NCBI RefSeq assembly: GCF_900104525.1
Contig: NZ_LT629711.1
Location: 310,001-374,000, forward strand
DNA from: Pedococcus dokdonensis
Lineage (GTDB): Bacteria > Actinomycetota > Actinomycetes > Actinomycetales > Dermatophilaceae
Direction of reading: 5' to 3'
DNA length: 64,000 bases
Shown: positions 3,460 to 63,864 of the stretch, piece after piece
How positions within the stretch are numbered: the stretch's first letter is position 1
How the letters are laid out: each line of letters begins with the position of its first letter
Translations under genes and position numbers: made by a program
Notes under the pieces: model-generated
The model's database searches: none
What the model was told of the DNA's origin: nothing
What the model saw: only the letters and a program-made list of their open reading frames with translations

Positions 3460-5186
3460 ATGACGACCACCGAGCCCGCTGCGGGCGCCGCCACCGCCGG
3501 AGTCGACATCAAGCCGCGCAGCCGCGACGTGACGGACGGGCTCGAGAAGACCGCCGCCCGTGGGATGCTCCGCGCGGTCGGCATGGGCGACGACGACTGG
3601 GTCAAGCCGCAGGTCGGGGTCGCCAGCTCCTGGAACGAGATCACGCCCTGCAACCTCTCGCTCGACCGACTGGCCAAGGCCGTCAAGGACGGTGTGCACG
3701 CGGGCGGTGGCTATCCGCTCGAGTTCGGCACCATCTCGGTCAGCGACGGCATCTCGATGGGTCACGAGGGCATGCACTTCTCCCTGGTGTCGCGCGAGAT
3801 CATCGCCGACTCGGTCGAGACGGTGATGAACGCCGAGCGGCTCGACGGCTCGGTGCTGCTCGCCGGGTGTGACAAGTCCCTGCCGGGGATGCTGATGGCC
3901 GCGGCGCGCCTCGACCTCAGCTCGGTGTTCCTGTATGCCGGGTCGATCCTCCCGGGCATCGCCAAGCTGTCCGACGGGTCCGAGAAGACGGTCACGATCA
4001 TCGACGCGTTCGAGGCGGTCGGCGCCTGCGCCGCCGGCCTGATGTCCCGCGAGGACGTCGACGCGATCGAGCGTGCGATCTGCCCGGGCGAAGGCGCCTG
4101 TGGCGGTATGTACACCGCGAACACGATGGCGTCGGTCGCCGAGGCCATCGGGATGTCGCTGCCCGGGTCGGCCGCCCCGCCGGCCACCGACCGCCGCCGC
4201 GACGGGTTCGCGCGCAAGTCGGGCGAGGCGGTCGTCGAGCTGCTGCGCCGCGGGATCACCGCGCGCGACATCATGACCAAGGAGGCGTTCGAGAACGCCA
4301 TCGCCGTCGTGATGGCCTTCGGTGGATCGACCAACGCGGTGCTGCACCTGCTGGCGATCGCCCACGAGGCCGAGGTGGACCTCACCCTCGACGACTTCAT
4401 CCGGGTCAGCGCCAAGGTGCCGCACCTGGCCGACGTGAAGCCGTTCGGGCAGTACGTCATGACCGACATCGACCGGGTCGGGGAGTGCCGGTCGTGATGC
4501 GGGCCCTGCTCGACGCCGGCCTGCTGCACGGCGACTGCCTGACCGTCACCGGCCGCACGATGGCCGAGAACCTCGCCGACATCGCCCCGCCCGACGCCGA
4601 CGGCAAGGTGGTCCGCGCGATGGGCCAGCCGATCCACCGGACCGGAGGCATCACCATCCTGAAGGGCACGCTCGCCCCCGAGGGTGCGGTCGTGAAGTCG
4701 GCGGGATTCGACTCCGACGTCTTCGAGGGCACCGCGCGGGTGTTCGACGGCGAACGGGCTGCCATGGACGCCGTCGCGGAGGGCTCGCTCAAGGCCGGCG
4801 ACGTGGTCGTGATCCGCTACGAGGGCCCGAAGGGCGGTCCGGGGATGCGCGAGATGCTCGCGGTCACCGGCGCCATCAAGGGCGCTGGCCTCGGCAAGGA
4901 GGTGCTTCTTCTCACCGACGGGCGGTTCTCCGGCGGGACGACCGGTCTGTGCGTCGGCCACGTCGCGCCCGAGGCGGTCGACGGCGGGCCGATCGCGTTC
5001 GTGCAGGACGGCGACCGGATCACCCTCGACGTCGCCAACGGCGTGCTCGACGTGCACGTCGACGAGGCCGAGCTCGCGCGCCGCGCCGAGGGGTTCGTGC
5101 CGCCGGAGTCGAAGTACCCGCGGGGGGTGTTGGCGAAGTACCGCAAGCTGGTCGGCAGCGCCAGCGGGGGCGCCGTCTGCGGCTGA
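3460..5186 (+). CDS. ilvD: Dihydroxy-acid dehydratase, interrupted by an apparent 1-base deletion
   Basis: IlvD dehydrates 2,3-dihydroxy acids to the 2-oxo acid precursors of Val, Ile and Leu. The cluster/Mg cysteines are visible in [19 protein letters not shown] and [10 protein letters not shown]. The reading frame that starts at 3460 ends at 4497 as [11 protein letters not shown], whereas the next frame continues with [18 protein letters not shown] to 5186. The family reads D-R-V-G-G-V-P-V-V-M here, so one base is missing in or next to the GGGG run at 4480-4483. Restored, the protein would be 575 residues, the usual length. Every other part is well conserved, which argues for a sequencing error or a very recent mutation rather than old decay. 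Confidence 0.9.
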
Positions 5187-5204
5187 CCCGTCGAACTCCC
5201 GCCG

Positions 5205-5249
5205 TTCGAGGTGATATCCGACCGGAATCCGGTCGGATATCACCTCGAA
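5205..5249. repeat. 45-bp perfect palindrome after ilvD
   Basis: Bases 5205-5226 and 5228-5249 are perfect complements (22 bp) around a single central A. The arm starts TTCGAGGTGATATCC and contains GATATC, so it is less GC-rich than a typical terminator here, and no T-tract follows. It may still end ilvD transcription. Confidence 0.85.
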
Positions 5250-5418
5250 CCGGCTAGCGGACCTGCTCGATGCGGTCGCGGGTGCCGAGGGGGGAGTGCT
5301 CGGCCCGAGGCGGTGCAGCTCACCTCCGCATTCCGGGCAGAATTGACTCCATCGGCACCCGTCGCCGGGCTGGAGCTGAGACGACGGGTCCGGATCGTGG
5401 GACCGGCTGTCTCGCGCG

Positions 5419-5447
5419 TTGACACGACCGGGGGACGGCGGGAGAGT
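5419..5447 (+). promoter_or_regulatory. ilvBNC promoter (TTGACA-N17-GAGAGT)
   Basis: A consensus -35 TTGACA (5419-5424) is followed after 17 bases by GAGAGT (5442-5447), whose end lies 6 bases before the GTG of the leader peptide. The leader would therefore be translated from a leaderless mRNA. Confidence 0.6.
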
Positions 5448-5453
5448 TCTCGT

Positions 5454-5480
5454 GTGGCACGAATCCTCGTACTTCACTAG
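5454..5480 (+). CDS. Leader peptide of the ilvBNC operon
   Basis: An 8-codon reading frame encoding MARILVLH then TAG. Four consecutive branched-chain residues (Ile-Leu-Val-Leu) are encoded, two of them by GTA and CTT, codons otherwise rare in this G+C-rich sequence. The stop codon is immediately followed by a hairpin and then a terminator, the arrangement of ribosome-mediated attenuation. Comparable ILV-containing leaders precede ilvB in Corynebacterium and Streptomyces. Scarce charged Ile, Val or Leu tRNA would stall the ribosome and allow read-through into ilvB. Confidence 0.8.
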   Translation: MARILVLH

Positions 5481-5633: not shown

Positions 5634-7553
5634 GTGAGTGACGCGACACCGGCAGCGAGCCCGGCGCCGACCCCGGCGCCGACCCCGGCCCCGACTCCGG
5701 CCCCGACTCCGGCGCCCAGCCCCTCCCGGCTGGCCGAGCAGGCGCGGGCGAAGGTGCCCGCCGAGGTGACCGGTGCGCAGAGCCTCGTGCTCTCGCTCGA
5801 GGCGATGGAGGTCGACACCGTCTTCGGCATCCCGGGCGGGGCGATCCTGCCTGCCTACGACCCCCTGCTCGACTCGGTCAAGGTCCGCCACATCCTCGTC
5901 CGGCACGAGCAGGGCGCCGGCCACGCTGCCGAGGGTTATGCCAGCGCGACCGGCAAGGTCGGGGTCTGCATGGCGACGTCCGGCCCGGGCGCCACCAACC
6001 TGGTCACCGCGATCGCCGACGCCTACATGGACTCGGTGCCGATCGTGGCGATCACCGGTCAGGTCGCCTCCGCCGCCATCGGCACGGACGCCTTCCAGGA
6101 AGCCGACATCCGCGGCATTACGATGCCGATCACCAAGCACAACTACCTCGTCACGAACGCCAGCGACATCCCGCGGGTCATCGCCGAGGCCTTCCACATC
6201 GCCTCGACGGGTCGTCCGGGTCCGGTCCTCGTCGACATCTCCAAGGACGCCCTCCAGGCGAGGACCTCGTTCTCGTGGCCGCCGAAGTACGACCTGCCCG
6301 GTTACCGGCCGGTGGCGCGTCCGCACAACAAGCAGATCCGTGAGGCGGCGCGGCTGATCGCCCAGGCCAAGCGCCCGGTCTTCTACGTCGGCGGTGGTGT
6401 GGTGCGGGGCCGCGCGTCCGACGCGCTGCGGGAGTTCGTCGAGCTGACCCAGATACCCGTCGTCACCACGCTGATGGCCCGTGGCGCCGTGCCGGACAGT
6501 CACCCGCTCCACCTGGGCATGCCGGGCATGCACGGGTCGGTCGCCGCCGTGACCGCGCTGCAGAAGTCCGACCTGCTGATCACCCTCGGCGCCCGGTTCG
6601 ACGACCGCGTGACGGGTCAGCTGTCGACGTTCGCGCCCGAGGCCAAGGTGATCCACGCCGACATCGACCCCGCCGAGATCTCCAAGAACCGCACCGCAGA
6701 CGTGCCGATCGTGGGCGACGTGCTCGAGGTCATCGAGGAGCTCGTCAAGGCGGTCGCCGCCGACCACGCGGCCGGCGCCACGGGCGACTACGCGGCGTGG
6801 CGTGAGCAGACCGCCGGCTGGAAGGCCACCTTCCCGCTCGGCTACACCGTGCCCGAGGGCGAGGAGAGCGTCTCCCCGCAGCACGTCATCGAGCGGATCG
6901 GCGCGATCAGCGGTCCCGAGTCCATCTACGTTGCGGGCGTGGGCCAGCACCAGATGTGGGCTGCCCAGTTCGTGCAGTACGAGCGACCGAACGCCTGGTT
7001 GAACTCCGGCGGCCTCGGGACGATGGGGTATGCCGTGCCGGCCGCCATGGGCGCAAAGGTCGCCGAGCCGGACCGCGTCGTCTGGGCGATCGACGGGGAC
7101 GGCTGCTTCCAGATGACCAACCAGGAGCTCGCGACCTGTGTCATCAACAACATCCCGATCAAGGTCGCGATCATCAACAACAGCAGCCTCGGCATGGTGC
7201 GCCAGTGGCAGTCGCTGTTCTACGACAAGCGTTACTCCAACACCGACCTGCACACGTCGGTCGGCAGCCGGATCCCCGACTTCGTCAAGCTCGCCGATGC
7301 CTACGGCTGTGTCGGCCTGCGCTGCGAACGGCCCGAGGACGTCGATGCGACGATCAAGAAGGCGATGGAGGTCAACGACGTCCCGGTGATCGTCGACTTC
7401 GTCGTCCACCGCGACGCGATGGTCTGGCCGATGGTCCCGGCCGGGGTCAGCAACGACGCCATCCAGGTGGCCAAGGACACCGCCCCGCAGTGGGACCGCG
7501 AAGAGGACGAGGCGACCGAGCAGCCCGAGGACGCCGACAAGGACGGGAAGTGA
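5634..7553 (+). CDS. ilvB: Acetolactate synthase large (catalytic) subunit
   Basis: A 639-residue TPP-dependent enzyme that condenses pyruvate with pyruvate or 2-oxobutyrate, the first common step to Val, Leu and Ile. The N-terminal TPP-binding domain starts near residue 47 ([23 protein letters not shown]); Glu92 in [14 protein letters not shown] is the cofactor-activating glutamate; a central FAD domain and a C-terminal [15 protein letters not shown]/Mg motif follow. Residues 7-30 form an unusual Ala-Pro-Thr repeat (PAPT units) not needed by the enzyme. Start GTG at 5634. The stop codon overlaps the ATG of ilvN by one base, and the operon is controlled by the leader-peptide attenuator upstream. 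Confidence 0.97.
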
Positions 7554-9142: not shown

Positions 9143-9182
9143 CGCACCTCCCCGCGCGGGCACCCGCGCACCACACGGTATG

Positions 9183-9212
9183 CCGGCCGGTCCCCTTCGG
9201 GGGGCCGGCCGG
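9183..9212 (+). terminator. Hairpin after ilvC
   Basis: CCGGCCGG-T-CCCC pairs with GGGG-G-GCCGGCCGG across a TTC loop. It has no T-tract, as is common for G+C-rich actinobacteria. Confidence 0.65.
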
Positions 9213-11119: not shown

Positions 11120-11355
11120 TTGCATGAGCTACCGCCGGGGGGAGCGGCGCTGACTCGCCTTTTGTATGAGCCACCGCCGGGGGAGCGGCGCTGACTCGCC
11201 TTTTGTATGAGCCACCGCCGGAGGAGCGGCGCTGACTCGCCTTTTGTATGAGCTACCGTCGGGGGAGCGGCGCTGACTCGCCTTTTGTATGAGCTACCGC
11301 CGGGGGAGCGGCGCTGACTCGCCTTTTGTATGAGCCACCGCCGGGGGAGCGGGTA
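11101..11355. repeat. 41-bp tandem repeat derived from the serA terminator arm
   Basis: AGCGGCGCTGACTCGCCTTT begins copies at 11101, 11143, 11184, 11225, 11266 and 11307, with a truncated copy at 11348. The period is 41 bases (42 once). Each unit is the right terminator arm with its T-tract followed by about 20 bases of GTATGAGCCACCGCCGGGGG. Only the first copy has a left arm to pair with. Confidence 0.9.
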
Positions 11356-11370
11356 TGCCGGGGGGCCGGC

Positions 11371-12420: not shown

Positions 12421-13512
12421 ATGTCCTCCGAGAGCGCCGGCCACGACACCGGGACCACCACCGGGACCGACACCGTCAACCTCGCCGTCATCGGTGGCGA
12501 CGGGATCGGTCCGGAGGTCGTCGCCGAGGGCCTGAAGGTCCTCGAGGCCGCCACCGCGGGCACGGGCACCAAGTTCCACACCACGGAGTACGACCTCGGC
12601 GCGCGACGCTGGCACGCCACCGGTGAGACCCTGCCCGACTCCGTCCTGGAGGAGCTGCGCGGCCACGACGCGATCCTGCTGGGCGCGATCGGCGACCCGA
12701 CGGTCCCGAGCGGCGTCCTCGAGCGTGGGGTGCTGCTCCCCTTGCGGTTCGCTCTCGAGCAGTACGTCAACCTCCGGCCGGCCAAGCTCTTTCCGGGAGT
12801 GCAGAGCCCGTTGGCCGTCGAGCGGGTGGCCCCCGACGGCATCGACTTCGTCGTCGTCCGCGAGGGCACCGAGGGCCCCTACGTCGGCAACGGTGGGGCC
12901 CTGCGCACCGGCACCCCCCACGAGATCGCGACCGAGGTCAGCGTCAACACCCGGTTCGGTGTCGAGCGCGTCGTGCGTGACGCGTTCGCCCGCGCGCAGG
13001 GTCGCCCGCGCCAGCACCTCACCCTGGTCCACAAGCACAACGTCCTCACCCACGCCGGCCACCTGTGGCGGCGCACCGTCGAGGAGGTGGGCGTCGAGTT
13101 CCCCGAGGTCACGACGGCATACCAGCACGTCGACGCGGCCACGATCTTCCTGGCCACCGATCCGGGACGGTTCGACGTCATCGTCACGGACAACCTGTTC
13201 GGCGACATCATCACCGACATCGCCGCGGCGATCGTCGGCGGCATCGGGCTGGCCGCGAGCGCGAACATCAACCCCGAGCGCACCGCCCCGAGCATGTTCG
13301 AGCCGGTGCACGGCTCGGCGCCCGACATCGCCGGCCAGGCCAAGGCCGACCCGACTGCGACGATCCTCTCGGTCGGCATGCTCCTGGAGCACCTCGGACG
13401 GTCGGACGAGGCGGCCCGCGTCGAGCGTGCGGTCGAGGCCGACCTCGCCTCGAGAGGTGACGCCGTACGCAGCACCCCCGAGGTCGGCGACGCGATCGCG
13501 TCCGTCCTCTAG
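12421..13512 (+). CDS. leuB: 3-isopropylmalate dehydrogenase
   Basis: A 363-residue NAD-dependent beta-decarboxylating dehydrogenase of leucine synthesis. [21 protein letters not shown] is the N-terminal signature, [21 protein letters not shown] holds the substrate arginines, and [31 protein letters not shown] is the metal and NAD signature. An 18-residue Thr/Gly-rich N-terminal extension precedes the fold. It probably starts on a leaderless mRNA. ilvE follows about 100 bases downstream on the same strand. The actinobacterial LeuB subgroup has the (N/E)xREGTEGPY form seen here ([11 protein letters not shown]). Confidence 0.96.
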
Positions 13513-16470: not shown

Positions 16471-17372
16471 CCCACGGCCTGACGCTGGAGGAGGCGCTCG
16501 AGCGGCTGCCCCGACTGGGGCGGCCGCTCGAGGTCACCGAGCTGCCGGGCGGGTTGACCAACCACAACCACAGGGTCCGGACGGCGACACACGATGTCGT
16601 CGTGCGGATCTCGCCACCAGGCACCGAGCTGCTGGCCATCGACCGCGAGCACGAGTGGCGCAACAGCTGCGTCGCCGCCTCGGTCGGCGTCGGGGCGCCG
16701 GTCGTGGAGTACCTGCAGGGCGAGGGGGTGCTCGTCGTCGAGTTCCTGCCGGGGCGCACCTACACCGCCGCTGACGTCGCGGCCAACCTGCCGCGCATCG
16801 CTGCCACGGCGCGGCGGCTGCACGCCGGGCCACCGTTCGCCTCGCGGTTCGACATGTTCGAGGTGCAGCGGGGCTACCAGCGCATCGTCGACGAGCGCGG
16901 GTATGCCGTGCCCGCCGGCTACGACGCGCTGGCTCCGAACGCGGCGCGGGTCGAGGCGGCCCTGCGGGCCCACCCCGAACGGCTGGTGCCGTGCCACAAC
17001 GACCTGCTGGCCGCGAACGTGATCGACGACGGGGGAGACCTGCGGTTCATCGACTACGAGTACTCGGGGATGAACGAGGCGTCCTTCGAGCTCGGCAACC
17101 TCGTCAACGAGTCACAGCTCGGCCACGACCACCTGGCGGAGCTGGTCGAGGCCTACCACGGCGTGGTCACGGCCCGGCTGCTCGCCCGGGCCGAGCTGTG
17201 GGGCCTGGCTGGTCGGTGGGCGTGGACGTTGTGGGGCGTGATCCAGCACGGTGCCTCGGATGTCGCCCACGACTTCTGGGACTTCGCGCAGGAGCGCCAC
17301 GAGCTGGCGCGACTGCTGCTGACCAGCCCGCGACTGGACGAGCTGCTCGACGCGGCCGGCGCGGCCCCGTGA
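16467..17372 (+). CDS. Choline/ethanolamine kinase-like phosphotransferase (APH fold)
   Basis: A 301-residue aminoglycoside-phosphotransferase-fold protein. LPGGLTNHNHRVRTATHDVVVRIS resembles the nucleotide-binding N-lobe of choline kinases, PCHNDLLAANVI is the catalytic H-N-D-x-x-x-x-N loop and RFIDYEYSGMNEASFELGN is the metal-binding motif with the choline-kinase type D-Y-E-Y. It starts with GTG overlapping the permease stop by 4 bases and its stop overlaps the next GTG, so it is a core member of the operon. Phosphorylation of an amino-alcohol or a related amine is the likely role; the exact substrate is not readable from sequence. Confidence 0.85.
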   Translation: MTHGLTLEEALERLPRLGRPLEVTELPGGLTNHNHRVRTATHDVVVRISPPGTELLAIDREHEWRNSCVAASVGVGAPVVEYLQGEGVLVVEFLPGRTYTAADVAANLPRIAATARRLHAGPPFASRFDMFEVQRGYQRIVDERGYAVPAGYDALAPNAARVEAALRAHPERLVPCHNDLLAANVIDDGGDLRFIDYEYSGMNEASFELGNLVNESQLGHDHLAELVEAYHGVVTARLLARAELWGLAGRWAWTLWGVIQHGASDVAHDFWDFAQERHELARLLLTSPRLDELLDAAGAAP

Positions 17373-19831
17373 CGACGGTCCCCGGCCGCGCTCGCGTCGT
17401 GGTCATCGGCGGTGGGGTGATCGGTTGCAGCGTGGCCTACCACCTCACCAGGCTCGGGTGGACCGACGTCGTGGTGCTGGAGCAGGGCACTCTCTCGTGC
17501 GGGACCACCTGGCACGCGGCCGGCCTCGTCGGGCAGCTGCGGGCCAGCGAGGCGGGCACCCGGCTGGTGCAGTACTCCACCGACCTCTACGCGCGGCTCG
17601 AGGACGAGACCGGGCTGACCACCGGCTACCGCGTCTGCGGCGGTCTCACGGTGGCCCGCACCCCCGAGCGGATGGTGCAGCTGCGGCGCACGGTCGCCAG
17701 CGCCGCGGCCTACGACCTCGAGTGCGAGCTGCTGACCCCACAGCAGGCGCAGGACCGCTATCCGCTGATCCAGGTCGACGACGTGGTCGGCGCCATCTGG
17801 TTGCCCGGTGACGGTCGCGCCAACCCGACGGACCTCACCCAGTCGCTGGCCAAGGGCGCCCGGATGGGCGGCGCGACGATCCTCGAGCGGGTGCGCGTCA
17901 CCGGGGTGAGGTCTCATCGCGGGCGGGTCGCCGGCGTGACCACCGACCTCGGCGACATCGAGGCCGAGGTGGTCGTCAACTGCGCGGGGCAGTGGGCCAA
18001 GGCCGTCGGTGCACTGGCAGGGGTGACCGTGCCACTGCACTCGGCCGAGCACTTCTACGTCGTCACCGACCAGGTGGCCGGCGTCCACCGCGACCTGCCG
18101 ATCCTGCGCGACCCGGATGGCTACACCTACGTCAAGGAGGAGGTCGGTGGGCTGCTGGTCGGCGGCTTCGAGCCGGTCGCCAAGCCGTGGGTCTCGCCAG
18201 ACCGGATTCCCTACCCCTTCGAGTTCGCATTGCTCGACGAGGACTGGGAGCACTTCGAGATCCTGATGGACAGTGCGGTGCACCGGATCCCGGTGCTCGC
18301 GGAGACCGGGATCCGCAAGTTCTACAACGGTCCCGAGAGCTTCACCCCCGACAACCAGTTCCTCCTCGGCGAGGCGCCCGAGCTGCCGGGGTTCTTCGTG
18401 GGCGCGGGCTTCAACTCGGTGGGGATCGCGTCGGCCGGTGGCGCCGGTCGCGCGCTGGCGGAGTGGGTCGTAGAGGGCGAGCCGACGTCCGACCTGATCG
18501 GTGTCGACCTGCGCCGGTTCTCACCGCTCGCGGGGAGCAACGCGTGGTTGCGGGCTCGGGTCGGCGAGGTGCTGGGCCTGCACTACGCCGTGCCGTGGCC
18601 CAATCGCGAGCTGGAGTCCGCACGGCCGCAACGGCTTTCACCGGTCCATGACCTGCTGGTCGAGCAGGGCGCCTGCCTCGGCAGCCGCAACGCCTGGGAG
18701 CGGGCCAACGTGTTCGCCCCGGCCGGAGTCGAGCCGGTCCTGGACTACAGCTGGGAGCGGCCCCGGTGGGTGGACTGGTGCGTCGCCGAGCAGCGCGCCA
18801 CCCGCGAGGCGGTCGCGGTCTTCGACCAGACGTCCTTCTCCAAGTACGTCGTCACCGGCCCCGACTCGTTGCGTGCCCTGCAGTGGCTGTGCTCCGCGGA
18901 CGTCGACGTCCCGGTCGGGCGGGCGGTCTACACGGCGCTGCTCAACTCGCGTGGCACCTACGAGGCCGACCTGACGGTGACGCGCACCTCGGCGACGGAC
19001 TTCTTCCTCGTGAGCAGCGCCGCGACCACCGTGCGCGACCTCGACTGGATCCGTCGCCACGTACCCGAGGACGCCCGCCTCGGCGTCGTCGACGTCACTG
19101 GCTCGTATGCCGTGTTCGGGGTCATGGGCCCACGCTCACGAGAGCTGTTGGAGGCCTTGGGTGACGACAGGTTCGACGACGCGTCCTTCCGGTTCGGCAC
19201 CAGCCGCGAGGTCGTGCTCGGAGAGGTCCTCGTGCGGGCTACCCGGATCACCTACGTGGGGGAGCTGGGCTGGGAGCTCTACGTGCCGACCGAGCTGGCG
19301 CGGTCCGTCTACCTGGACCTGTTCCGGGCCGGGGCCGACCTCGGCGTCGTGCCAGCCGGCTACTACGCCATCGAGGCGATGCGGCTCGAAAAGGGATACC
19401 GCGCCTTCGCTCGCGAGCTCACGACCGACACGGGACCGGTGGCAGCCGGACTGACCTTCGCCTGCAAGCTGCGCGGTGACGTCGACTTCCTCGGTCGCTC
19501 TGCCGTCGAGGCCACCCGCGGCACCCCGCCCGCGCGGCGGGTGGTGTCGTTCGTGGTCGGCGACCCGGCGGCATACCTGTGGGGTGGGGAGCTGGTGCTC
19601 CGCGACGGCGTGCCGGCCGGGCAGGTGACCAGCGCGGCGTGGGGCGCCACCGTCGGCTCAGCGGTGGGGCTGGCGCTCGTCGGGGACCGCGACGGCGGCA
19701 CCGCCGACAAGGATTGGCTCGACTCCGGGGAGTGGGAGGTCGACCTCGCGGGACAGCGGTTCGCGGTCGACGTGTCGCTGCGCCCGCCGTTCGACCCGGG
19801 GGGCCGCAAGCTCGGTCGGGAGACGTCTTAA
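17369..19831 (+). CDS. FAD-dependent dehydrogenase with GcvT domain (dimethylglycine/sarcosine dehydrogenase-like)
   Basis: An 820-residue two-part enzyme. Residues 1-380 form a DAO-type FAD domain (VVVIGGGVIGCSVAYHL) with TTWHAAGLVG, the motif whose histidine binds FAD covalently in dimethylglycine and sarcosine dehydrogenases. The second half (from about NVFAPAGVEPVLDYSW) is a GcvT/aminomethyltransferase-like tetrahydrofolate domain ending in a C-terminal barrel. Such enzymes oxidise N-methyl groups and hand the one-carbon unit to tetrahydrofolate. It overlaps the kinase gene by 4 bases. Together with the ligase downstream this suggests an N-methylated amine as the growth substrate; this is inference. 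Confidence 0.88.
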   Translation: MTTVPGRARVVVIGGGVIGCSVAYHLTRLGWTDVVVLEQGTLSCGTTWHAAGLVGQLRASEAGTRLVQYSTDLYARLEDETGLTTGYRVCGGLTVARTPERMVQLRRTVASAAAYDLECELLTPQQAQDRYPLIQVDDVVGAIWLPGDGRANPTDLTQSLAKGARMGGATILERVRVTGVRSHRGRVAGVTTDLGDIEAEVVVNCAGQWAKAVGALAGVTVPLHSAEHFYVVTDQVAGVHRDLPILRDPDGYTYVKEEVGGLLVGGFEPVAKPWVSPDRIPYPFEFALLDEDWEHFEILMDSAVHRIPVLAETGIRKFYNGPESFTPDNQFLLGEAPELPGFFVGAGFNSVGIASAGGAGRALAEWVVEGEPTSDLIGVDLRRFSPLAGSNAWLRARVGEVLGLHYAVPWPNRELESARPQRLSPVHDLLVEQGACLGSRNAWERANVFAPAGVEPVLDYSWERPRWVDWCVAEQRATREAVAVFDQTSFSKYVVTGPDSLRALQWLCSADVDVPVGRAVYTALLNSRGTYEADLTVTRTSATDFFLVSSAATTVRDLDWIRRHVPEDARLGVVDVTGSYAVFGVMGPRSRELLEALGDDRFDDASFRFGTSREVVLGEVLVRATRITYVGELGWELYVPTELARSVYLDLFRAGADLGVVPAGYYAIEAMRLEKGYRAFARELTTDTGPVAAGLTFACKLRGDVDFLGRSAVEATRGTPPARRVVSFVVGDPAAYLWGGELVLRDGVPAGQVTSAAWGATVGSAVGLALVGDRDGGTADKDWLDSGEWEVDLAGQRFAVDVSLRPPFDPGGRKLGRETS

Positions 19832-26794: not shown

Positions 26795-26827
26795 GGTATG
26801 CCGCGTGGCCGAGCCACGCGGCATACC
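26795..26827. repeat. GTATGCCG inverted pair after cimA
   Basis: GGTATGCCGCGTGGC (26795-26809) and GCCACGCGGCATACC (26813-26827) form a perfect 15-bp stem with a 3-base loop. The same arms recur at 32757 and 34844. It may terminate cimA. Confidence 0.85.
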
Positions 26828-27082: not shown

Positions 27083-28507
<1,425 letters not shown>

Positions 28508-32756: not shown

Positions 32757-32788
32757 GGTATGCCGCGTGGCCGGCCACGCGGCATACC
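32757..32788. repeat. GTATGCCG inverted pair, 32-bp perfect palindrome
   Basis: GGTATGCCGCGTGGCC (32757-32772) is followed immediately by its exact complement (32773-32788). It lies between the FAH-family gene and gltX. Confidence 0.9.
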
Positions 32789-46125: not shown

Positions 46126-46719
46126 ATGACCGACTACGTCGAGAGCGAGCGCCTGGTGCTGCGCCAGTTCACCGCGCAGGACGCGGACCTGCTGATCGGG
46201 CTGGACAGTGACCCCGCGGTGATGCGCTTCCTCACCGGCGGTGAGCCGTCGATGTCGGACGACGAAGTCCGTGACGAGGTCATCCCGAGCCTCCTCGCGG
46301 CATACGAGCGGTGGAACGGACGGTTCGGACTCTTCGCCGCCCACGAGAAGGCAACGGGCGACTTCATCGGTTGGTTCTGCCTGCGCCCGCAGCGCACGGG
46401 TCCGCTGGACGAGGTCGAGCTCGGCTACCGGCTTCGCCGTGACGCGTGGGGGAAGGGGTACGCGACCGAGGGTTCGCATGCCTTGGTGGACAAGGGTTTC
46501 TCGGAGCTCGGCGTCAACACCGTCTGGGGCGAGACGATGGCGCTCAACCTCTCGTCCCAGCGGGTGATGGAGAAGGTCGGGATGTCCGTCGTCGAGTCGA
46601 TCCCCACGCCGGACGAGATGCAGTCCGTCGAGGGAGCCGAGCGCGGAGGCTTCCGGTACGAGGTCACGAGAGATCAGTGGGAAGCCCGCCGCGACCGGTC
46701 GACCGCCGGACGTGCCTGA
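46126..46719 (+). CDS. GNAT-family N-acetyltransferase
   Basis: A 197-residue RimJ/RimL-type acetyltransferase. ESERLVLRQFTAQDADLLIGLDSDPAVMRFL is the standard N-terminal block, LGYRLRRDAWGKGYATEGSHALVDKGF holds the acetyl-CoA loop (R-x-x-x-G-K-G-Y-A-T-E) and ALNLSSQRVMEKVGM the final strand. Substrate unknown. Followed at about 100 bases by a small nitroreductase-like gene, and probably leaderless. Confidence 0.85.
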   Translation: MTDYVESERLVLRQFTAQDADLLIGLDSDPAVMRFLTGGEPSMSDDEVRDEVIPSLLAAYERWNGRFGLFAAHEKATGDFIGWFCLRPQRTGPLDEVELGYRLRRDAWGKGYATEGSHALVDKGFSELGVNTVWGETMALNLSSQRVMEKVGMSVVESIPTPDEMQSVEGAERGGFRYEVTRDQWEARRDRSTAGRA

Positions 46720-49434: not shown

Positions 49435-50400
49435 ATGGTCACGGCGCCCCTCACCCTGCGAGACGTCTCCGAGTCGGAGCTCCTGCGCCGGATCTTTCCC
49501 TTCTTCCGGGCCTCCCCGGGAGTCGCGGTCGGGCCGGGTGACGACGCTGCCGTGCTGCGCACCGGACCGGGCACGGTGGCCACCACCGACTCGATGATCA
49601 GGGGACGCGACTGGCTCGACGAGTGGTCGGGTGCGAGTGACGTGGCGACCAAGCTGCTCACCCAGAACCTCGCCGACGTCGCCGCCATGGGAGCGAGGTC
49701 GACCGCCGTGCTCGTGACCCTGGTGGCCGACCCGGCAACGCCGCTCGACTGGGCGGTCGACTTCGCCCGAACCCTGGGGGAGCAGGCCGCGGACCTCGGC
49801 GTGGCCGTCGCCGGGGGCGATCTGTCGTCGGCTCCCGACGGCGTGCTGATGGTGTCGATCACCGCCCTGGGTGACCTGGACGGCCGGGCGCCGGTCCTGC
49901 GCAGCGGTGCCCGGGTCGGGGACGTCGTCGCCGTGTGCGGGCCGCTCGGCCGGTCAGCGGCCGGGCTCGCCCTGCTCCAGTCCGGCGCCGACCCGCGGAC
50001 GCAGCCGGACGGCATACGCGGCTGGTGCATCGAGCACCACCTCAGGCCGCAGGCGCCGCTGACCGAGGGCCCGGCAGCCGCCGACGCCGGCGCGACGGCG
50101 ATGATCGACCTGAGCGACGGGCTGCTCCGTGACGGTCACCGGGTCGCTGGAGCGAGCGGCGTGCGCCTCGCGCTGTCGCCGACGGCCCTGCACGGCGACG
50201 TCGCGGAGCTGGAGCCCGTGGTGGGGGAGCAGGCTCTGGACTGCGTGCTGGCCGGTGGTGAGGAGCACAGCCTCCTGGCCACCTTCACCGGCGCAGCCCC
50301 GGACGGGTGGCGCACGATCGGCGTGGTCGAGGCCGGCGAGGGCGTCACCCTCGACGGCGCTGTCCAGCAGCCGCGGGGCTGGGACCACTTCCGGGCGTAG
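49435..50400 (+). CDS. thiL: Thiamine-monophosphate kinase
   Basis: A 321-residue kinase that makes thiamine diphosphate. VGPGDDAAVLRTGPGTVATTDSMIRGRDW is the N-terminal Mg/ATP motif, NLADVAAMGARSTAVLVTL and GGDLSSAP follow, and TAMIDLSDGLLRDG is the second catalytic block. ATG at 49435 with an ideal GAGGAGG site. The last codons are part of a 20-base direct repeat that continues past the stop. Confidence 0.95.
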   Translation: MVTAPLTLRDVSESELLRRIFPFFRASPGVAVGPGDDAAVLRTGPGTVATTDSMIRGRDWLDEWSGASDVATKLLTQNLADVAAMGARSTAVLVTLVADPATPLDWAVDFARTLGEQAADLGVAVAGGDLSSAPDGVLMVSITALGDLDGRAPVLRSGARVGDVVAVCGPLGRSAAGLALLQSGADPRTQPDGIRGWCIEHHLRPQAPLTEGPAAADAGATAMIDLSDGLLRDGHRVAGASGVRLALSPTALHGDVAELEPVVGEQALDCVLAGGEEHSLLATFTGAAPDGWRTIGVVEAGEGVTLDGAVQQPRGWDHFRA

Positions 50401-50476: not shown

Positions 50477-50502
50477 CGATTCGGTATGCCGCGGGGGCAG
50501 GG

Positions 50503-52588: not shown

Positions 52589-54838
52589 GTGGTCGACGAG
52601 CGCACCAAGCTGGACAAGCTGCTCGGGGTGCGGACCGCGGGCAACCTGGCCAAGCACCGCGACCTCGTGACGGTGGGGGACCTCCTGGAGTTCTGGCCAC
52701 GTCGCTACCTGGAGCACACCTCCGACCTGTCCGACCTGCACGTCGGCAAGTACGTCGTCGCCGTGGCCGAGGTGAAGACCGCAGCCACCCGACGGCCCAA
52801 GAGTGGCCGCGGCGAGATGCTCACCGTGACCATCACCGACGGTCGCAACGACGTGGACCTCGTGTTCTTCAAGGCCTGGGGGCACAAGGACAAGCTCGTC
52901 CCCGGCGTGCGGGCGGTGTTCGCCGGTGAGGTCGGCATCTACGGCCGCAGGTGGCAGCTCGCCCACCCGGCATACCAGCTCGTCGAGGGCGACCTGGGCA
53001 CCTCGGCCACGGACCGCGGTCCCATCCCGGTCTACCTCCAGGTCAAGGGACTCCAGAACTGGACCGTGGCGGAGTGCGTGCGGATCGTCTTCGACCACCT
53101 CGAGGACGTGCCCGAGCCGTTGCCCGCGAGCCTGCGCCGACGGCACGGGCTGCCCGGCCGACTCGAGGCGCTGCGCGGCATCCACGTGCCCAAGGCCTTC
53201 CCCGAGGTGCAGCGCGCCCGTCAGCGGCTGCGCTACGAGGAGGCTCTGGTCTTCCAGACGCTGCTCGCGCAGCGTCGCGCGCGTCAGGCTGCCGACCGCA
53301 CCACCGGGCGCACCCCGCGGGCCGGCGGGCTTCTCGCGGCGTTCGACGCCCGCCTGCCCTTCGAGCTGACCGACGGGCAGAAGGCAGTCGGAGCGACCCT
53401 CGCCGAGGAGCTGGCCAAGGACGTGCCGATGAACCGCCTGCTGCAGGGTGAGGTCGGGTCCGGCAAGACGGTCATCGCGCTGCGCGCCATGCTCGCCGCC
53501 GTCGATGCGGGCGGTCAGGCTGCGCTGCTCGCACCCACGGAAGTCCTTGCAGCACAGCACCATCGGTCGATCACGACGATGCTGGGCGATCTGGCCGAGG
53601 GAGGCTTGCTGGGCGGCAGCGACATCGGCACCCGCGTCGCACTGCTCACCGGCAGCCAGTCGACCGCAGCCCGTCGCGACAACCTCCTCCAGGCCGCCAG
53701 CGGGGACGCCGGCATCGTGATCGGGACCCACGCGATCATCCAGGACAAGGTGCAGTTCCAGGACCTCGCGCTCGTCGTCGTCGACGAGCAGCACCGCTTT
53801 GGTGTCGAGCAGCGAGATGCGCTGCGCGAGAAAGGAACCCAGCCGCCCCACGTGCTCGTCATGACGGCCACGCCGATCCCACGCACCGTGACGATGACGG
53901 TCTTCGGCGACATGGAGACCTCGACCCTGGCCGAGCTCCCGCGGGGGCGTTCGCCCATCGCGACCCACGTCGTGCCGGCCGAGCGGCGGGACTGGGTGCA
54001 GCGCACCTGGGAGCGGGTGGCCGAAGAGGTGCGGTCCGGCCGGCAGGCCTACGTCGTCTGCCCCCGGATCGGTGATGGCGACGGCGGCGCGGGCAGGGCG
54101 AGGAGCGCAGGGAGTGCGTCGGCCGACGAGGAGGAGATCGCCGAGTCGGTCTTCGCGCCGGACGACGACGGTGAGGGCGCAGCGGTCGCTGCCCCGCCGC
54201 GCGAGATGGCGAGCGTCCATGCCGTCGAAGCCACCTTGCGGGCCAACCCCGCCCTCGCCGGCCTCTCGATCGCCGTGCTGCACGGCCGGATGCCGCCCGA
54301 GGACAAGGACGCGGTCATGGGCGCCTTCACCGCTGGCGAGGTCGATGTGCTGGTCTCCACCACCGTGATCGAGGTGGGCGTCGACGTGCCCAACGCGACC
54401 GTCATGGTCGTCGTCGACGCCGACCGGTTCGGGGTGTCGCAGCTGCACCAGCTGCGCGGTCGGGTCGGTCGTGGCGTGCACCCCGGGCTGTGCCTGCTCA
54501 TGACGTCGTCCGAGGCGGAGGCGTCGGTCGAGCGGCTGGAGGCCGTGGCCGGCACGAACGACGGGTTCGAGCTGGCCCGCCTCGACCTCGAGCTGCGTGG
54601 CACGGGCGACGTGCTCAGCGGCCGGCAGAGCGGAGGCGGCCGGTCGGGGAGGGGGATGGGGCGGGGGAGCTTCCGGTTCCTGTCGCTCGTGCGCGACGAA
54701 GAGATCATCCTCCAGGCGCGCGAGGACGCCGCCGAGCTGGTCGCCGCCGATCCAGAGCTGACCGATCACCCCGAGCTGGCCAAGGCCGTCACCGAGCGGG
54801 TCGACGAGGAGCAGGCAGCCTTCCTCGACCGAGGCTGA
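52589..54838 (+). CDS. recG: ATP-dependent DNA helicase RecG
   Basis: A 749-residue superfamily 2 helicase for stalled forks and Holliday junctions. An N-terminal wedge/OB domain (residues 1-190) is followed by helicase lobes: Walker A GEVGSGKTVIAL, VVVDEQHRFGVEQRDAL (D-E-Q-H), VMTATPIPRT and STTVIEVGVDVPNATVMVVVDADRFGVSQLHQLRGRVGRG (motifs V/VI). About 40 residues rich in Gly, Ser and acidic residues are inserted between the two helicase lobes. GTG start, 2 bases after the DAK2 stop. Confidence 0.96.
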   Translation: MVDERTKLDKLLGVRTAGNLAKHRDLVTVGDLLEFWPRRYLEHTSDLSDLHVGKYVVAVAEVKTAATRRPKSGRGEMLTVTITDGRNDVDLVFFKAWGHKDKLVPGVRAVFAGEVGIYGRRWQLAHPAYQLVEGDLGTSATDRGPIPVYLQVKGLQNWTVAECVRIVFDHLEDVPEPLPASLRRRHGLPGRLEALRGIHVPKAFPEVQRARQRLRYEEALVFQTLLAQRRARQAADRTTGRTPRAGGLLAAFDARLPFELTDGQKAVGATLAEELAKDVPMNRLLQGEVGSGKTVIALRAMLAAVDAGGQAALLAPTEVLAAQHHRSITTMLGDLAEGGLLGGSDIGTRVALLTGSQSTAARRDNLLQAASGDAGIVIGTHAIIQDKVQFQDLALVVVDEQHRFGVEQRDALREKGTQPPHVLVMTATPIPRTVTMTVFGDMETSTLAELPRGRSPIATHVVPAERRDWVQRTWERVAEEVRSGRQAYVVCPRIGDGDGGAGRARSAGSASADEEEIAESVFAPDDDGEGAAVAAPPREMASVHAVEATLRANPALAGLSIAVLHGRMPPEDKDAVMGAFTAGEVDVLVSTTVIEVGVDVPNATVMVVVDADRFGVSQLHQLRGRVGRGVHPGLCLLMTSSEAEASVERLEAVAGTNDGFELARLDLELRGTGDVLSGRQSGGGRSGRGMGRGSFRFLSLVRDEEIILQAREDAAELVAADPELTDHPELAKAVTERVDEEQAAFLDRG

Positions 54839-55738: not shown

Positions 55739-56314
55739 GTGACACGCATCATCAGCGGCCGGGCCGGGGGCACGCGGCTGGCCACCCCGGCCGGCTCCGG
55801 CACCCGGCCGACGAGCGACCGCGTGCGCGAGGCGCTGTTCTCCCGCCTGGAACACCTCGAGGTCCTGGCCGGCGCGAAAGTCGTTGACCTGTATGCCGGT
55901 TCAGGAGCCCTGGGTCTCGAAGCGGCCAGTCGTGGCGCGGCCACCGTCCTGCTCGTCGACTCGGACCGGTCCGCCGCGAAGGTGACCAAGCAGAACGCCG
56001 ACACCCTCGGCATACCCGGTGTGACGGTGCGGCAGGCCACGGTCCAGAAGGTCCTCGCATCACCTCCGGCCGCGCCCCAGACGCTGGTCTTCCTCGACCC
56101 GCCCTACGACCTCACGGAGGAGACGCTGACCGCGGACCTCACCGCGCTCACCACGGGGGGCTGGCTCGCCCCCGACGCGCTGGTGGTCGTCGAGCGGTCG
56201 GCGCGTTCGCCGGAGCCGGCCTGGCCGGACGTCCTCGAGTGCGAAGGAGAACGCCGTTACGGCGAGACGAAGATCTGGTTCGCCGGCCCGCGCCACCCTG
56301 ACGGCGTGGCCTGA
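55739..56314 (+). CDS. rsmD: 16S rRNA (guanine-N2)-methyltransferase RsmD
   Basis: A 191-residue methyltransferase that modifies G966 (E. coli numbering) of 16S rRNA. RIISGRAGGTRLATP, TRPTSDRVREALFSRLEHL, VVDLYAGSGALGLEAASRGA (SAM binding) and LVFLDPPYD (catalytic D-P-P-Y) are all present. GTG at 55739. Position before coaD is conserved, but here it is separated from coaD by two small stress-type genes. Confidence 0.95.
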   Translation: MTRIISGRAGGTRLATPAGSGTRPTSDRVREALFSRLEHLEVLAGAKVVDLYAGSGALGLEAASRGAATVLLVDSDRSAAKVTKQNADTLGIPGVTVRQATVQKVLASPPAAPQTLVFLDPPYDLTEETLTADLTALTTGGWLAPDALVVVERSARSPEPAWPDVLECEGERRYGETKIWFAGPRHPDGVA

Positions 56315-57934: not shown

Positions 57935-60049
57935 CTGACCTCGACGGACCGGAGCCCGACCCACCCTCGGGCGACCCGCTTCCGGCCTGACGTCGAGGGA
58001 CTGCGCGCCGTCGCCGTGCTGCTCGTCGTGCTCTACCACGCGGGTCTCCCGCTCCCGAACGGCTTCCTCGGGGTCGACGTCTTCTTCGTCATCTCGGGGT
58101 TCCTCATCACCGGCATCCTCGTCCGCGAGCTGCTCACCACCGGCACCATCAGCTGGACCCGGTTCGTCGGACGCCGGATCCGGCGGCTCCTGCCCGCGGC
58201 CATCCTCGTCCTCGTCGTGACGGCCGTGGTGGCGTGGTTCGTCGTGCCGGGGCTGCGCCGCCGCGACATCGGCACCGACGTCGCAGGTGCCGCGCTCTAC
58301 GTCGTCAACTGGGTGCTGGCCCACCGTGCGGTCGACTACCTCGCCTCCGACAGCATCCCCTCTCCCGTGCAGCACTTCTGGTCGCTGGCGGTGGAGGAGC
58401 AGTTCTACGTCGTGTGGCCGCTGGCCCTGATCGCCCTGGCCCTGGTGCTCAACCGTCTGGGGCGCCGCCCCGGCGTGGGCGTCGTCGCCGGCCTCCTCAC
58501 CGTCATCGCCGTCCCGTCCTTCGGGTATGCCGTGTGGCTGGGTGGCGTCGACCCCGACCGCGCCTACTTCGTCACCACGACCAGGGCGTGGGAGCTCGGG
58601 GTGGGCGCGGCGCTCGCGGTCTGGTGCGCGGGTCGGGAGGCGAGCCCGCGGCATACCGACCCGGCGGGCGCGGCGACGCGCGCAGGGACGTGGGCGTTCG
58701 TCGGCTGGGTGGGGCTCGCCGCGGTGATCGGTTCGGCGTGCTGGTTGCCGGCAGGTGCGGTGACCCCGGGCCCCTGGACCCTCGTGCCCACCGTGGGGGC
58801 CGCGGCCGTGCTGCTGTCGGGCTGGGCCGGCACGCCGGGCGGCCCGGTCAGGCTGCTCGGCGCCGCGCCGATGGTCTGGATCGGGAGCCTGTCCTACTCC
58901 ATCTACCTGTGGCACTGGCCGGCCCTGGTGCTGACCGAGTGGGCGCTCGACGGGATCTCGACCACGCAGCGGCTCCTCGTGCTCGCCCTGTCGTTCCTGC
59001 CGGCCTGGGGGAGCCACCGGTGGCTGGAGAGCCCGATCCACCACAGTCGTGCCCTGGCCGAACGCACCCGTCCGGTGCTGGCGCTCGGGGTCGCCCTGTC
59101 GGCTGTCGGAGCCCTCGCCGCTCTGCCCCTCACCCAGGCGGCGTCGCCGTTCCGCACCACGCCCGTGTCCGGCGCGCGCCCGGCGGTCGACAGCCTCGGC
59201 GCCGCGACCCTGTCGTCCCCGCCGAGCAGCGATCCGGCCACCTATGCCGTGGACGACTGGGAGTGGTTGACCCCCGACCCCCAGCTGGCGGGGGAGGACC
59301 GCCCGGCCGCGGACGTCGACCGCTGCCAGGTCGACCGGCTCGTCGAGGAACCGGTCGCGTGCGAGTTCGGGGTGCCGGACGGCACCACGACGGTCGCGCT
59401 GGTGGGCGACTCCAAGGCGATGCAGTGGCTGCCGGCGCTCGAACGACTCGCCCCCGGGCGCGGCTGGCGGATCGTGACCTACGGCAAGTCGGCCTGCGCG
59501 TTCGCGGACGGCCGTGCGCAGAACGAGGGGCGCGCCTACCCGGCCTGCGACGAGTGGAACCGCCGGGTCGTGGAGCGGCTGGCCGCCGCGCCACCCGACC
59601 TCCTCCTGACCTCCGGGTATGCCGCGTCGGCCTGGGACGGCGCGAGCGCCACGCGGGCGGCCCTGGTGCGCGGCCTCGCGACCCGTTGGTCGCAGCTGCG
59701 CGAACGCGGGGTGCCGGTGGTGGTGCTCGGCGACAGCCCGTTGTCGCCCGACGACCTCGACGTGTGCACGGCCCGGCACCCCCACGAGCTGAGCCGGTGC
59801 GCCTTCGAGCGGGGTCCCGCCGTGGCGGGCAGCGGGCTGCCGGCGCAGGTCGAGGCAGCGGCCGCTTCCGGCACCCCGCTGGTCGACCTCACACCCTGGA
59901 TCTGCCCCGTTCCGCGCTGTCCGGTCGCGATCGGGAACGTCACGATCCACCGCGCCGGGGACCACCTCACCGCCACCTACGTGCGGACGCTCGCGACCGT
60001 GCTGGGCGCGGAGCTCGACCGGGCGGCCCCCGCGCATTTGGGGGAGTAG
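57935..60049 (+). CDS. Membrane acyltransferase of the OafA/YrhL type with C-terminal SGNH domain
   Basis: An approximately 704-residue protein. RPDVEGLRAVAVLLVVLYHAG is the characteristic N-terminal segment of acyltransferase-3 proteins, followed by about ten membrane helices (LGVDVFFVISGFLITGILV, HFWSLAVEEQFYVVWPLAL). The periplasmic SGNH hydrolase part starts near LVGDSKAMQWLPAL (Ser) and ends with GDHLTATYV (Asp-x-x-His). It O-acetylates an envelope polysaccharide or peptidoglycan. No ATG, GTG or TTG precedes the conserved motif in frame; CTG at 57935 is the only plausible start, with GGGGGAG upstream. Otherwise an indel has shifted the GTG at 57930. The first standard codon in frame, GTG 58016, would delete the motif. 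Confidence 0.85.
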   Translation: MTSTDRSPTHPRATRFRPDVEGLRAVAVLLVVLYHAGLPLPNGFLGVDVFFVISGFLITGILVRELLTTGTISWTRFVGRRIRRLLPAAILVLVVTAVVAWFVVPGLRRRDIGTDVAGAALYVVNWVLAHRAVDYLASDSIPSPVQHFWSLAVEEQFYVVWPLALIALALVLNRLGRRPGVGVVAGLLTVIAVPSFGYAVWLGGVDPDRAYFVTTTRAWELGVGAALAVWCAGREASPRHTDPAGAATRAGTWAFVGWVGLAAVIGSACWLPAGAVTPGPWTLVPTVGAAAVLLSGWAGTPGGPVRLLGAAPMVWIGSLSYSIYLWHWPALVLTEWALDGISTTQRLLVLALSFLPAWGSHRWLESPIHHSRALAERTRPVLALGVALSAVGALAALPLTQAASPFRTTPVSGARPAVDSLGAATLSSPPSSDPATYAVDDWEWLTPDPQLAGEDRPAADVDRCQVDRLVEEPVACEFGVPDGTTTVALVGDSKAMQWLPALERLAPGRGWRIVTYGKSACAFADGRAQNEGRAYPACDEWNRRVVERLAAAPPDLLLTSGYAASAWDGASATRAALVRGLATRWSQLRERGVPVVVLGDSPLSPDDLDVCTARHPHELSRCAFERGPAVAGSGLPAQVEAAAASGTPLVDLTPWICPVPRCPVAIGNVTIHRAGDHLTATYVRTLATVLGAELDRAAPAHLGE

Positions 60050-62739: not shown

Positions 62740-62785
62740 CAGCAGGGGTCCCTCGGTTGTACAACTGAACCGAGAGGTGGTGCAG

Positions 62786-63082
62786 ATGGATCACAACGGT
62801 CCCGCCCGGGCGGTCGTCTGGGTGCACGGTCGGGTGCAGGGTGTGGGGTTCCGCTGGTGGACCCGCGCACGGGCACTGGAGCTCGGTCTGGTCGGGCATG
62901 CGCGCAACGCCGGCGACGGGCGCGTCGAGGTGGTCTGCCAGGGCGACGAGGAGCAGATCAAGCAGCTGGTCGCCCTCATCGAGGAGCGACCGTCGCAGCA
63001 CCTGCGTCCCGGCGAGGTCCACCAGTGCGTCACCACGTGGGGTGCGCCGAAGGACGGGCTGGTCGGGTTCGTCGAAAAGTGA
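62786..63082 (+). CDS. acyP: Acylphosphatase
   Basis: A 98-residue acylphosphatase: VVWVHGRVQGVGFRWWTRARALEL contains the phosphate loop (G-R-V-Q-G-V-G-F-R, catalytic Arg) and HARNAGDGRVEVVCQG the catalytic Asn. It hydrolyses carboxyl-phosphate bonds. I start it at ATG 62786 because GAGAGG lies 8 bases upstream; a GTG at 62777 overlaps that site. The coding end is part of a tandem repeat. Confidence 0.93.
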   Translation: MDHNGPARAVVWVHGRVQGVGFRWWTRARALELGLVGHARNAGDGRVEVVCQGDEEQIKQLVALIEERPSQHLRPGEVHQCVTTWGAPKDGLVGFVEK

Positions 63083-63149
63083 CGGCGTCGAAAAGTGACG
63101 GCGTCGAAACTGATGGCGCTGAACAGTGATGGCGCTGAACACTGATGGA
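63071..63149. repeat. 16-bp degenerate tandem repeat at the acyP 3' end
   Basis: GTCGAAAAGTGACGGC occurs twice (63071, 63087), followed by GTCGAAACTGATGGC, GCTGAACAGTGATGGC and GCTGAACACTGATGGA. The first unit includes the acyP stop codon. Confidence 0.85.
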
Positions 63150-63349
63150 GGGGGAAGGAGGGGGGTCCAGGCGGAGCGGCGTCGCCTCCCGATGGGGTGC
63201 CGAGCGGTGGGTTTGCCCGTGACATCGACCGTTCACCGACGGTGGCATTGACCGGTCGGGGTCCGGCTGTCACTCTGAGAGATGCCCGGACGAACCCCCT
63301 GGGCACCCGCACGGCGCGAACCCCCGACGCCTGCGGAGAAGGAGTCGAC

Positions 63350-63541
63350 ATGGCCAAGGCCCTGGTGGGCTATCGCGTGGCGTCCGACCCGCGACTGATG
63401 CTCGAGACCGTCGAACTGCGTCGCCGCGTGCGGGACCTCGAGTTCCTCGTCGAACGGCTGCAGCTGGAGAACGACCGGCTCCGTGAGGATCTGAGACAGC
63501 CCGACGCCGTCGCGGCGGGCGTGCCTACGATTGCCGGGTGA
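63350..63541 (+). CDS. Small coiled-coil protein of unknown function
   Basis: A 63-residue protein. MAKALVGYRVASDPRLMLET is followed by a long heptad-type helix (ELRRRVRDLEFLVERLQLENDRLREDLRQ) that should form a coiled coil. ATG with an ideal GGAGAAGGAG site. Similar small proteins stand directly before chorismate mutase in related actinobacteria; the stop overlaps the chorismate mutase GTG by 4 bases, indicating coupling. No function is known to me. Confidence 0.75.
   Translation: MAKALVGYRVASDPRLMLETVELRRRVRDLEFLVERLQLENDRLREDLRQPDAVAAGVPTIAG
63526..63531 (+). promoter_or_regulatory. Putative -10 (TACGAT) of leaderless chorismate mutase
   Basis: TACGAT ends 6 bases before the GTG at 63538, inside the previous gene. 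Confidence 0.4.
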
Positions 63542-63864
63542 GCTCGACCGCACCCACGCCCGGTTCGTCCCGCTCGACCGGTTCGACCCCTGACGATCTC
63601 GTGCGCCTGCGCGCGAGCATCGACAACATCGACGCCGCCCTGATCCACCTGCTTGCCGAGCGCTTCAAGTGCACCCAGCAGGTCGGGCAGCTGAAGGCAC
63701 GCGAGGGTATGCCGCCGGCTGACCCGGCGCGCGAGGAGGCCCAGATCGCGCGCCTGCGCGACCTGGCCGACCAGGCCGGCCTCGACCCGACCTTCGCCGA
63801 GAAGTTCCTCAACTTCGTGATCGCCGAGGTGATCCACCACCACGAGGCCATCGCCGGCTCCTGA
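63538..63864 (+). CDS. Chorismate mutase (AroQ type)
   Basis: A 108-residue all-helical chorismate mutase that converts chorismate to prephenate. LVRLRASIDNIDAALIHLLAERFKCTQQVGQLKA contains the first active-site Arg and Lys, and ARLRDLADQAGLDPTFAEKFLNFVIAEVIHHHEAI completes the three-helix fold. The N-terminal 20 residues are Ser/Thr/Pro-rich and probably disordered. GTG overlaps the stop of the coiled-coil gene. Followed by the hairpin element at 63873. Confidence 0.9.
   Translation: MSSTAPTPGSSRSTGSTPDDLVRLRASIDNIDAALIHLLAERFKCTQQVGQLKAREGMPPADPAREEAQIARLRDLADQAGLDPTFAEKFLNFVIAEVIHHHEAIAGS

Follow-up and report, generated by a model that had tools for sequence, protein, structure and literature searches.

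The window analyzed here is a stretch of 64,000 nucleotides from Pedococcus dokdonensis (contig NZ_LT629711.1, positions 310,001 to 374,000). It is dotted with copies of the octamer GTATGCCG, which probably represents a DNA uptake sequence (DUS), a tag for DNA of the cell's own kind. The initial annotation counted 19 copies on the plus strand and 15 on the minus strand; both counts are exact, and its example coordinates are off by 0–3 bases. Genes were called with our own codon-usage caller and not taken from the annotation. According to these gene calls, 25 copies are genic and nine are intergenic. The copies are listed below with their position in the window and strand, as derived from the motif count and the gene calls, and with folding energies for the inverted pairs.

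1754..1761, minus strand, motif copy in a gene
3390..3397, minus strand, intergenic motif copy
3933..3940, plus strand, motif copy in a gene
7028..7035, plus strand, motif copy in a gene
9178..9185, plus strand, intergenic motif copy
11353..11360, plus strand, intergenic motif copy
13115..13122, minus strand, motif copy in a gene
16901..16908, plus strand, motif copy in a gene
19105..19112, plus strand, motif copy in a gene
19569..19576, minus strand, motif copy in a gene
25644..25651, plus strand, motif copy in a gene
26796..26826, no single strand, inverted motif pair (26796 plus, 26819 minus), 23 bp after a stop codon, fold of -34.8 kcal/mol
27229..27236, minus strand, motif copy in a gene
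29760..29767, minus strand, motif copy in a gene
30265..30272, plus strand, motif copy in a gene
32010..32017, minus strand, motif copy in a gene
32758..32787, no single strand, inverted motif pair (32758 plus, 32780 minus), 5 bp after a stop codon, fold of -42.6 kcal/mol
34845..34852, plus strand, intergenic motif copy with an imperfect inverted partner (2 mismatches); 34835-34895 folds to -39.7 kcal/mol
37396..37403, plus strand, motif copy in a gene
40820..40827, plus strand, motif copy in a gene
41051..41058, minus strand, motif copy in a gene
42102..42109, plus strand, motif copy in a gene
46298..46305, minus strand, motif copy in a gene
50010..50017, minus strand, motif copy in a gene
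50484..50491, plus strand, intergenic motif copy
52968..52975, minus strand, motif copy in a gene
55891..55898, plus strand, motif copy in a gene
56008..56015, minus strand, motif copy in a gene
58525..58532, plus strand, motif copy in a gene
58649..58656, minus strand, motif copy in a gene
59617..59624, plus strand, motif copy in a gene
63707..63714, plus strand, motif copy in a gene

The 34 copies in the window compare to a mean of 0.97 and a maximum of 6 in 100 dinucleotide shuffles. In the whole genome (one contig of 3,942,064 bases) the octamer occurs 973 times on the forward and 954 times on the reverse strand, giving 1,927 copies, versus 57 (28 + 29) for a control of equal composition, namely the same pattern reversed. 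The over-representation noticed initially thus holds against the shuffles in the window and against the reversed control genome-wide, where the frequency is not near expectation but 34 times that of the control. The absence of strand bias holds as well: strand use is balanced across the genome, and no regional orientation trend is visible in a layout sample of 918.5 kb in 44 stretches (about 23% of the genome), with 210 and 221 copies on the two strands. The remark that most copies are preceded by G is borne out by 0.58 of 205 sites, rising to 0.76 of the 109 intergenic sites, and the intergenic copies show a longer consensus, GGTATGCCGCGTGG.

The copies are also spaced more evenly than random (variance/mean of 0.72 in 182 bins of 5 kb). 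Such regularity would suit a chromosome-organization or protein-binding site, for instance for a nucleoid protein, a segregation system or a DNA pump. We nevertheless regard this explanation as improbable: no change of orientation along the chromosome is visible in the 44 stretches, unlike for pump signals, the loss and re-spelling of the word between neighboring genera (see below) would be odd for a structural role, and such a site gives no reason for an exclusion that acts between copies on the same strand only.

Most copies lie in genes. A codon test sample of 464 kb (20 evenly spaced stretches and the window) contains 205 copies, of which 162 are genic, 42 intergenic and one straddling. 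Resampling of synonymous codons on the same proteins predicts only 9.9 genic copies, and all six frame/orientation classes exceed expectation, by 4.5- to 66-fold, with two classes holding 2 copies each. The suggestion that genic copies force rare codons is true in bulk, as 94 of the 230 TAT codons and 12 of the 22 ATA codons of the sample are found inside copies. The synonym with the favored tyrosine codon, GTACGCCG, is depleted (24 copies versus 68.7 expected). Intergenic DNA of the layout sample carries 109 copies in 98.6 kb and the remainder 321 in 819.9 kb. In principle, the octamer could arise secondarily from a family of terminator repeats or from a preference for certain codons and dipeptides, given that 136 of the 162 genic copies encode Tyr-Ala or Ala-Tyr and that 11 of 14 close inverted pairs are intergenic. 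This is hardly credible in view of the excess over synonymous resampling, the predominance of single, genic copies and the depletion of the favored-codon synonym; as the full cause of the enrichment, codon usage or a terminator family is ruled out by the resampling.

Among pairs of copies at most 60 bp apart in the layout sample, we found 14 convergent, one divergent and no tandem arrangements. The 11 intergenic convergent pairs all lie within 50 bp of a stop codon, while the other three lie inside genes. Three intergenic palindromes had been proposed for the window. Two of them are exact pairs (26796/26819 and 32758/32780), but the third, at 34845, has an imperfect partner; all three form strong hairpins (z of -6.1, -6.0, and -3.5). 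No U-run follows the hairpins in the window. These inverted pairs could serve as terminators.

Neighboring copies of the octamer on the same strand exclude each other. In the source genome, the observed/expected ratio of same-strand pairs is 0.13 at 60–300 bp and climbs over 0.24, 0.31 and 0.55 to 0.82 at 1.5–2 kb, reaching about 1 beyond 2 kb, whereas opposite-strand pairs range from 0.72 to 1.25 over equal distances. Taken together for 60–1000 bp, there are 22 same-strand pairs versus 92.3 expected and 98 opposite-strand pairs versus 92.3. Among 152 control octamers of similar abundance, the same-strand ratio goes no lower than 0.76, and 2,000 orientation shuffles never gave fewer than 39 same-strand pairs at this distance. 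The exclusion extends to relatives. Five tad-1 loci (a Tad-type pilus locus, see below) from the Pedococcus clade have one same-strand pair at 60–1000 bp versus about 13.5 expected, and 30 tad-1 loci of other genera have 51 versus about 103, with 120 opposite-strand pairs. It is weaker in 16 comEC loci, taken from the genus and from other genera (32 same-strand pairs versus about 56), in which the opposite-strand counts are uneven. A test on neighboring copies gives a p-value of 8e-6 for the named tad-1 loci, whereas the values for the comEC loci (0.17 and 0.48) do not reach significance. The pair counts on named and comEC loci consider only loci with at least four copies, and a mobile-like stretch of the source genome (L130) was excluded. 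The simplest meaning of this exclusion is a site that is read on one strand, with a benefit that saturates over 1–2 kb.

A site of this kind brings Chi to mind, a non-palindromic octamer that is present in many copies in Escherichia coli and read on one strand. A Chi-like recombination site is the main and serious rival to an uptake sequence: a helicase-nuclease of the AdnAB type, entering from a DNA end, would change over to recombination on reading the word in one strand, and each strand would therefore need its own series of sites. This would account for the exclusion between same-strand copies only, for the equal use of both strands and for the scarcity of copies in foreign-looking stretches. 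We nonetheless consider it unlikely. RecC, through which RecBCD reads Chi, is missing in 10 of the 11 genomes of the genus including the source genome, although all 11 bear the motif (the search did not extend to AdnAB itself). Chi, with 112 sites in 500 kb of E. coli K-12, is strand-biased (79 versus 33) and shows no same-strand exclusion, with 19 pairs versus 16.0 expected at 60–1000 bp and 25 versus 16.7 at 1–2 kb; as one Chi system, this is a small control. In addition, the absence of the word from loci of some relatives and its one-base dialects, both described below, would be odd for a core repair enzyme, and the hairpins after genes have no place in this scheme. Chi as read by RecBCD is rejected on the two grounds of the missing RecC and the strand-biased E. 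coli sites without exclusion. A methylation or restriction self-mark, a word kept abundant and read by a modification system, is far less probable still. Some modification enzymes do read a non-palindromic word on one strand, which would fit, but to our knowledge modification systems do not enrich their own sites 30-fold, and a self-mark leaves the strand-specific spacing and the hairpins unexplained.

The source genome falls within the Pedococcus clade of the Intrasporangiaceae (Dermatophilaceae); among the named relatives found, Phycicoccus sp. Soil802 and Pedococcus bigeumensis are closest by the tree and by their tad-1 ATPases (92% and 90%, respectively). As had been suggested, we looked for the word in sister genera. 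It is present in all genomes of the genus and patchy within the family: of the 36 genomes examined from the family, the 11 genus members and 12 more reach at least five times the count of the reversed pattern, including genome G026 with only 235 copies. Genome G025 has 1,142 copies at 2.5 times the control. In this genome the word has a longer fixed 3′ side (TATGCCGCTG) and is mostly intergenic (16 copies outside and 7 inside genes in 80 kb), and the reversed control is raised as well. None of 22 genomes from other families of the order reaches five times the control. In the 244 genomes, out of 248 from the phylum, that lie outside the family, the maximum is 386 copies in 7.5 Mb (control 176), and ratios above 5 occur only at 15 and 8 copies. 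Four loci from Janibacter and four from the Phycicoccus jejuensis group contain neither the word nor its dialect spellings. Janibacter sp. HTCC2649, which has the word, groups with Knoellia in the tree.

Dialects follow clades in the case of GTATGNCG, GTATGCGG and, more weakly, GTACGCCG. The spelling GTATGCGG reaches 1,204 copies in G030 (control 107). The spelling GTATGACG stands beside GTATGCCG in G013 (1,557 copies, control 151), G014 (834) and G021 (597), which indicates that position 6 is loose in these genomes. GTACGCCG is raised in G033 (58 versus 14.5 in genes, 6 versus 0.8 outside) and less so in G034 (22 versus 9.4); the case for this dialect is weaker because the word uses favored codons. 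We also observed GTATGCGG repeated on a single strand at intervals of about 61 bases (G053:C1:28082-31265), possibly an array of clustered regularly interspaced short palindromic repeats. On a tree of TadA-B-C (69 rows), the presence of the word requires 6 changes versus 21.7 with shuffled labels. Each genome was labeled from a single locus of 7–21 kb; Nostocoides sp. F2B08, a user of GTATGCGG, was scored negative. Nine of 80 named loci were dropped for being shorter than 7 kb, and three of the remaining 72 rows (the window included) for lack of TadA, TadB or TadC. The tree fits a word that arose once, at the base of the Intrasporangiaceae/Ornithinimicrobiaceae/Dermacoccaceae clade, and was later lost in places.

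Within the genus the copies are conserved. Pooled over 18 pairwise comparisons, which count recurring sites repeatedly, 76 of the 121 aligned copies have not changed, versus 21.5% of all octamers. The four genomes with the fewest copies (G006, G007, G009, and G010) contribute 11 of 43 unchanged, and the others 65 of 78. Copies thus persist where they are numerous and fade near the background rate where they are scarce. Three foreign-looking stretches of 20 kb hold only 3, 1, and 1 copies, although these are few stretches and no island was mapped end to end.

The initial annotation proposed a search for comEA, comEC and pilus genes. The source genome encodes ComEC, with ComEA (SLBB and HhH domains) directly upstream in gene order, and four Tad-type loci, two of which resemble by gene order the transformation clusters of Micrococcus luteus. 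No flp gene was called in tad-1, while tad-2 has a short Flp-like pilin. PilM of type IVa pili was not found in the source genome and is missing from 34 of the 36 family genomes. Adjoining tad-1, a reading frame of 2,247 amino acids without a Pfam match is located at 1211-7954 of locus L129 (G000, near 1.92 Mb). In the tad-1 loci of many relatives (e.g., L209, L210, L211, and L212), reading frames of about 60–80 amino acids, possibly pilins, are found between tadC and tadE; none was called in the source genome. The three family genomes without a match to the tad-1 ATPase (G016, G023, and G024) are all motif-free.

The tad-1 ATPase gene is split in three genomes, by inserts of about 71, 79, and 11 kb located at or shortly after the Walker A codons (G003:C1:2353519-2424098, G009:C11:595536-674171, and G017:C43:9853-20886, respectively). 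Samples of 20 kb inside the G003 and G009 inserts hold 3 and 1 motif copies. No direct repeat of 12 bases was found at the insert ends, the best match being 8 bases in one of the three. Mobile elements may target this competence ATPase gene.

Among known systems, uptake sequences are described for two families only (PMC12616744), the Neisseriaceae and the Pasteurellaceae, both Gram-negative, and no report of one in Actinomycetota is among the matches listed in the open-licence literature. The neisserial DUS is described as having thousands of copies, close inverted repeats as terminators, clade dialects, conservation beyond the surroundings and absence from recently acquired genes (PMC3630211, PMC2397512), as being atypical in mobile elements (PMC7371117) and as spaced in accordance with the length of gene-conversion tracts (PMC2397512). 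Our octamer resembles it in being a short, abundant and conserved word with close inverted repeats and clade dialects. It differs in that it occurs in another phylum with another envelope, with Tad/Flp clusters but no PilM, and in its strand-specific spacing. We should note that GTATGCCG shares ATGCCG with the neisserial DUS ATGCCGTCTGAA as printed in PMC2346458, possibly by chance. The second point of comparison is M. luteus, whose transformation needs two tad clusters and involves homologues of ComEA and ComEC (PMC4322843). The source genome encodes a like set. No uptake word is tied to the pilus of M. luteus in the main text of that paper, where the phrase ‘uptake sequence’ does not occur.

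Abundance, dialects, hairpins after genes, conservation, the few copies in foreign-looking stretches and the competence apparatus together fit a DUS better than any other known kind of element. The initial idea of a DUS-like motif in an actinobacterium is therefore supported, and we consider GTATGCCG a probable DUS; that it raises uptake, through which receptor and in which direction, is what we infer from genomes. Several observations weigh against this assignment. ComEC is present in all 36 family genomes, motif-free ones included, and the ATPases of tad-1 and tad-2 are found in 52 and 57 of 58 genomes, respectively, again including motif-free ones (a few at paralogue-level identity, with the cut-offs used). 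Since competence genes are equally common in motif-free relatives, the machinery is no proof of a link to the word; as predictors of the motif, ComEC, PilM and the two ATPases were rejected, their distribution failing to track it. The presence of the machinery in most motif-free relatives also implies that it likely came first and that the word is an addition. The three genomes with a split tad-1 ATPase gene (G003, G009, and G017) are motif-rich. The DUS class includes a receptor (ComP or similar), but no candidate was found here: in the six tad-1 proteins compared, no column stands out, and such columns were dropped as receptor candidates. The genomic spacing points to strand-specific action, whereas the orientation of the uptake signal sequence (USS) of Haemophilus and other Pasteurellaceae is reported to be irrelevant to uptake in Haemophilus influenzae (PMC1939737), so that the spacing by strand marks a genuine difference or else hints at another function. 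Finally, overlapping USS pairs occur in both orders (PMC7811141), unlike in the source genome, where 14 of 15 close pairs share one order; in other genera neither order is favored (6 convergent versus 6 divergent pairs in the 30 tad-1 loci, 3 versus 5 in the 16 comEC loci).

If GTATGCCG acts in uptake, the Tad/Flp competence pilus would carry a predicted receptor, either a Tad minor pilin or another surface protein, that binds the word and favors the import of own-kind DNA. ComEC would then pass one strand only, and each copy would serve one strand over about 1–2 kb. A second copy on the same strand of an imported tract would add nothing, while a copy on the opposite strand would still count, giving two independent combs of sites. 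Biased uptake and recombination would spread and keep the copies by molecular drive. The strand-specific spacing was not predicted, and it suggests that recognition is tied to the step of strand choice, in a phylum that lacks a Gram-negative outer membrane.

Two further dispersed repeats and a set of abundant words were encountered. One repeat is centered on CTCATGCAAAAGGCGAGTTAGCG (window position 11118; L061, L062, L064 at 12099-12201, L066, L079, and others); its copies often form short arrays or inverted pairs with a separation of about 45 bp. Another, around AACCTTTGCTAGCAAAGG, often forms pairs 60 bp apart (L018 at 1298, L021 at 17960-18020, L069 at 9651-16091, and L077 at 13851-13911). 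The comEC region of genome G005 (L104) contains words such as ACTGACCC and GACCCGGA at 13–17 copies in 20 kb versus about 2–4 expected.

Our best reading is that GTATGCCG is an uptake sequence, to judge from the open-licence matches listed the first for Actinomycetota, which is served by a Tad/Flp instead of a type IVa pilus and acts strand by strand. More tentatively, with confidence somewhat short of even, it may represent a third independent origin of self-DNA uptake signaling and the first among Gram-positive phyla; a Tad/Flp competence pilus would read the word on one strand and in one direction, with two combs spaced by the length of the imported single-stranded tract. If true, this third case, with another pilus and with dialects and losses within one family, would be an independent replicate for weighing selection for kin DNA against molecular drive, and strand choice and tract length could be approached by measuring the same-strand exclusion. 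Such a case would also point to active natural transformation in genera like Knoellia, Serinicoccus, Ornithinimicrobium, and Tetrasphaera and open a route to transforming them.

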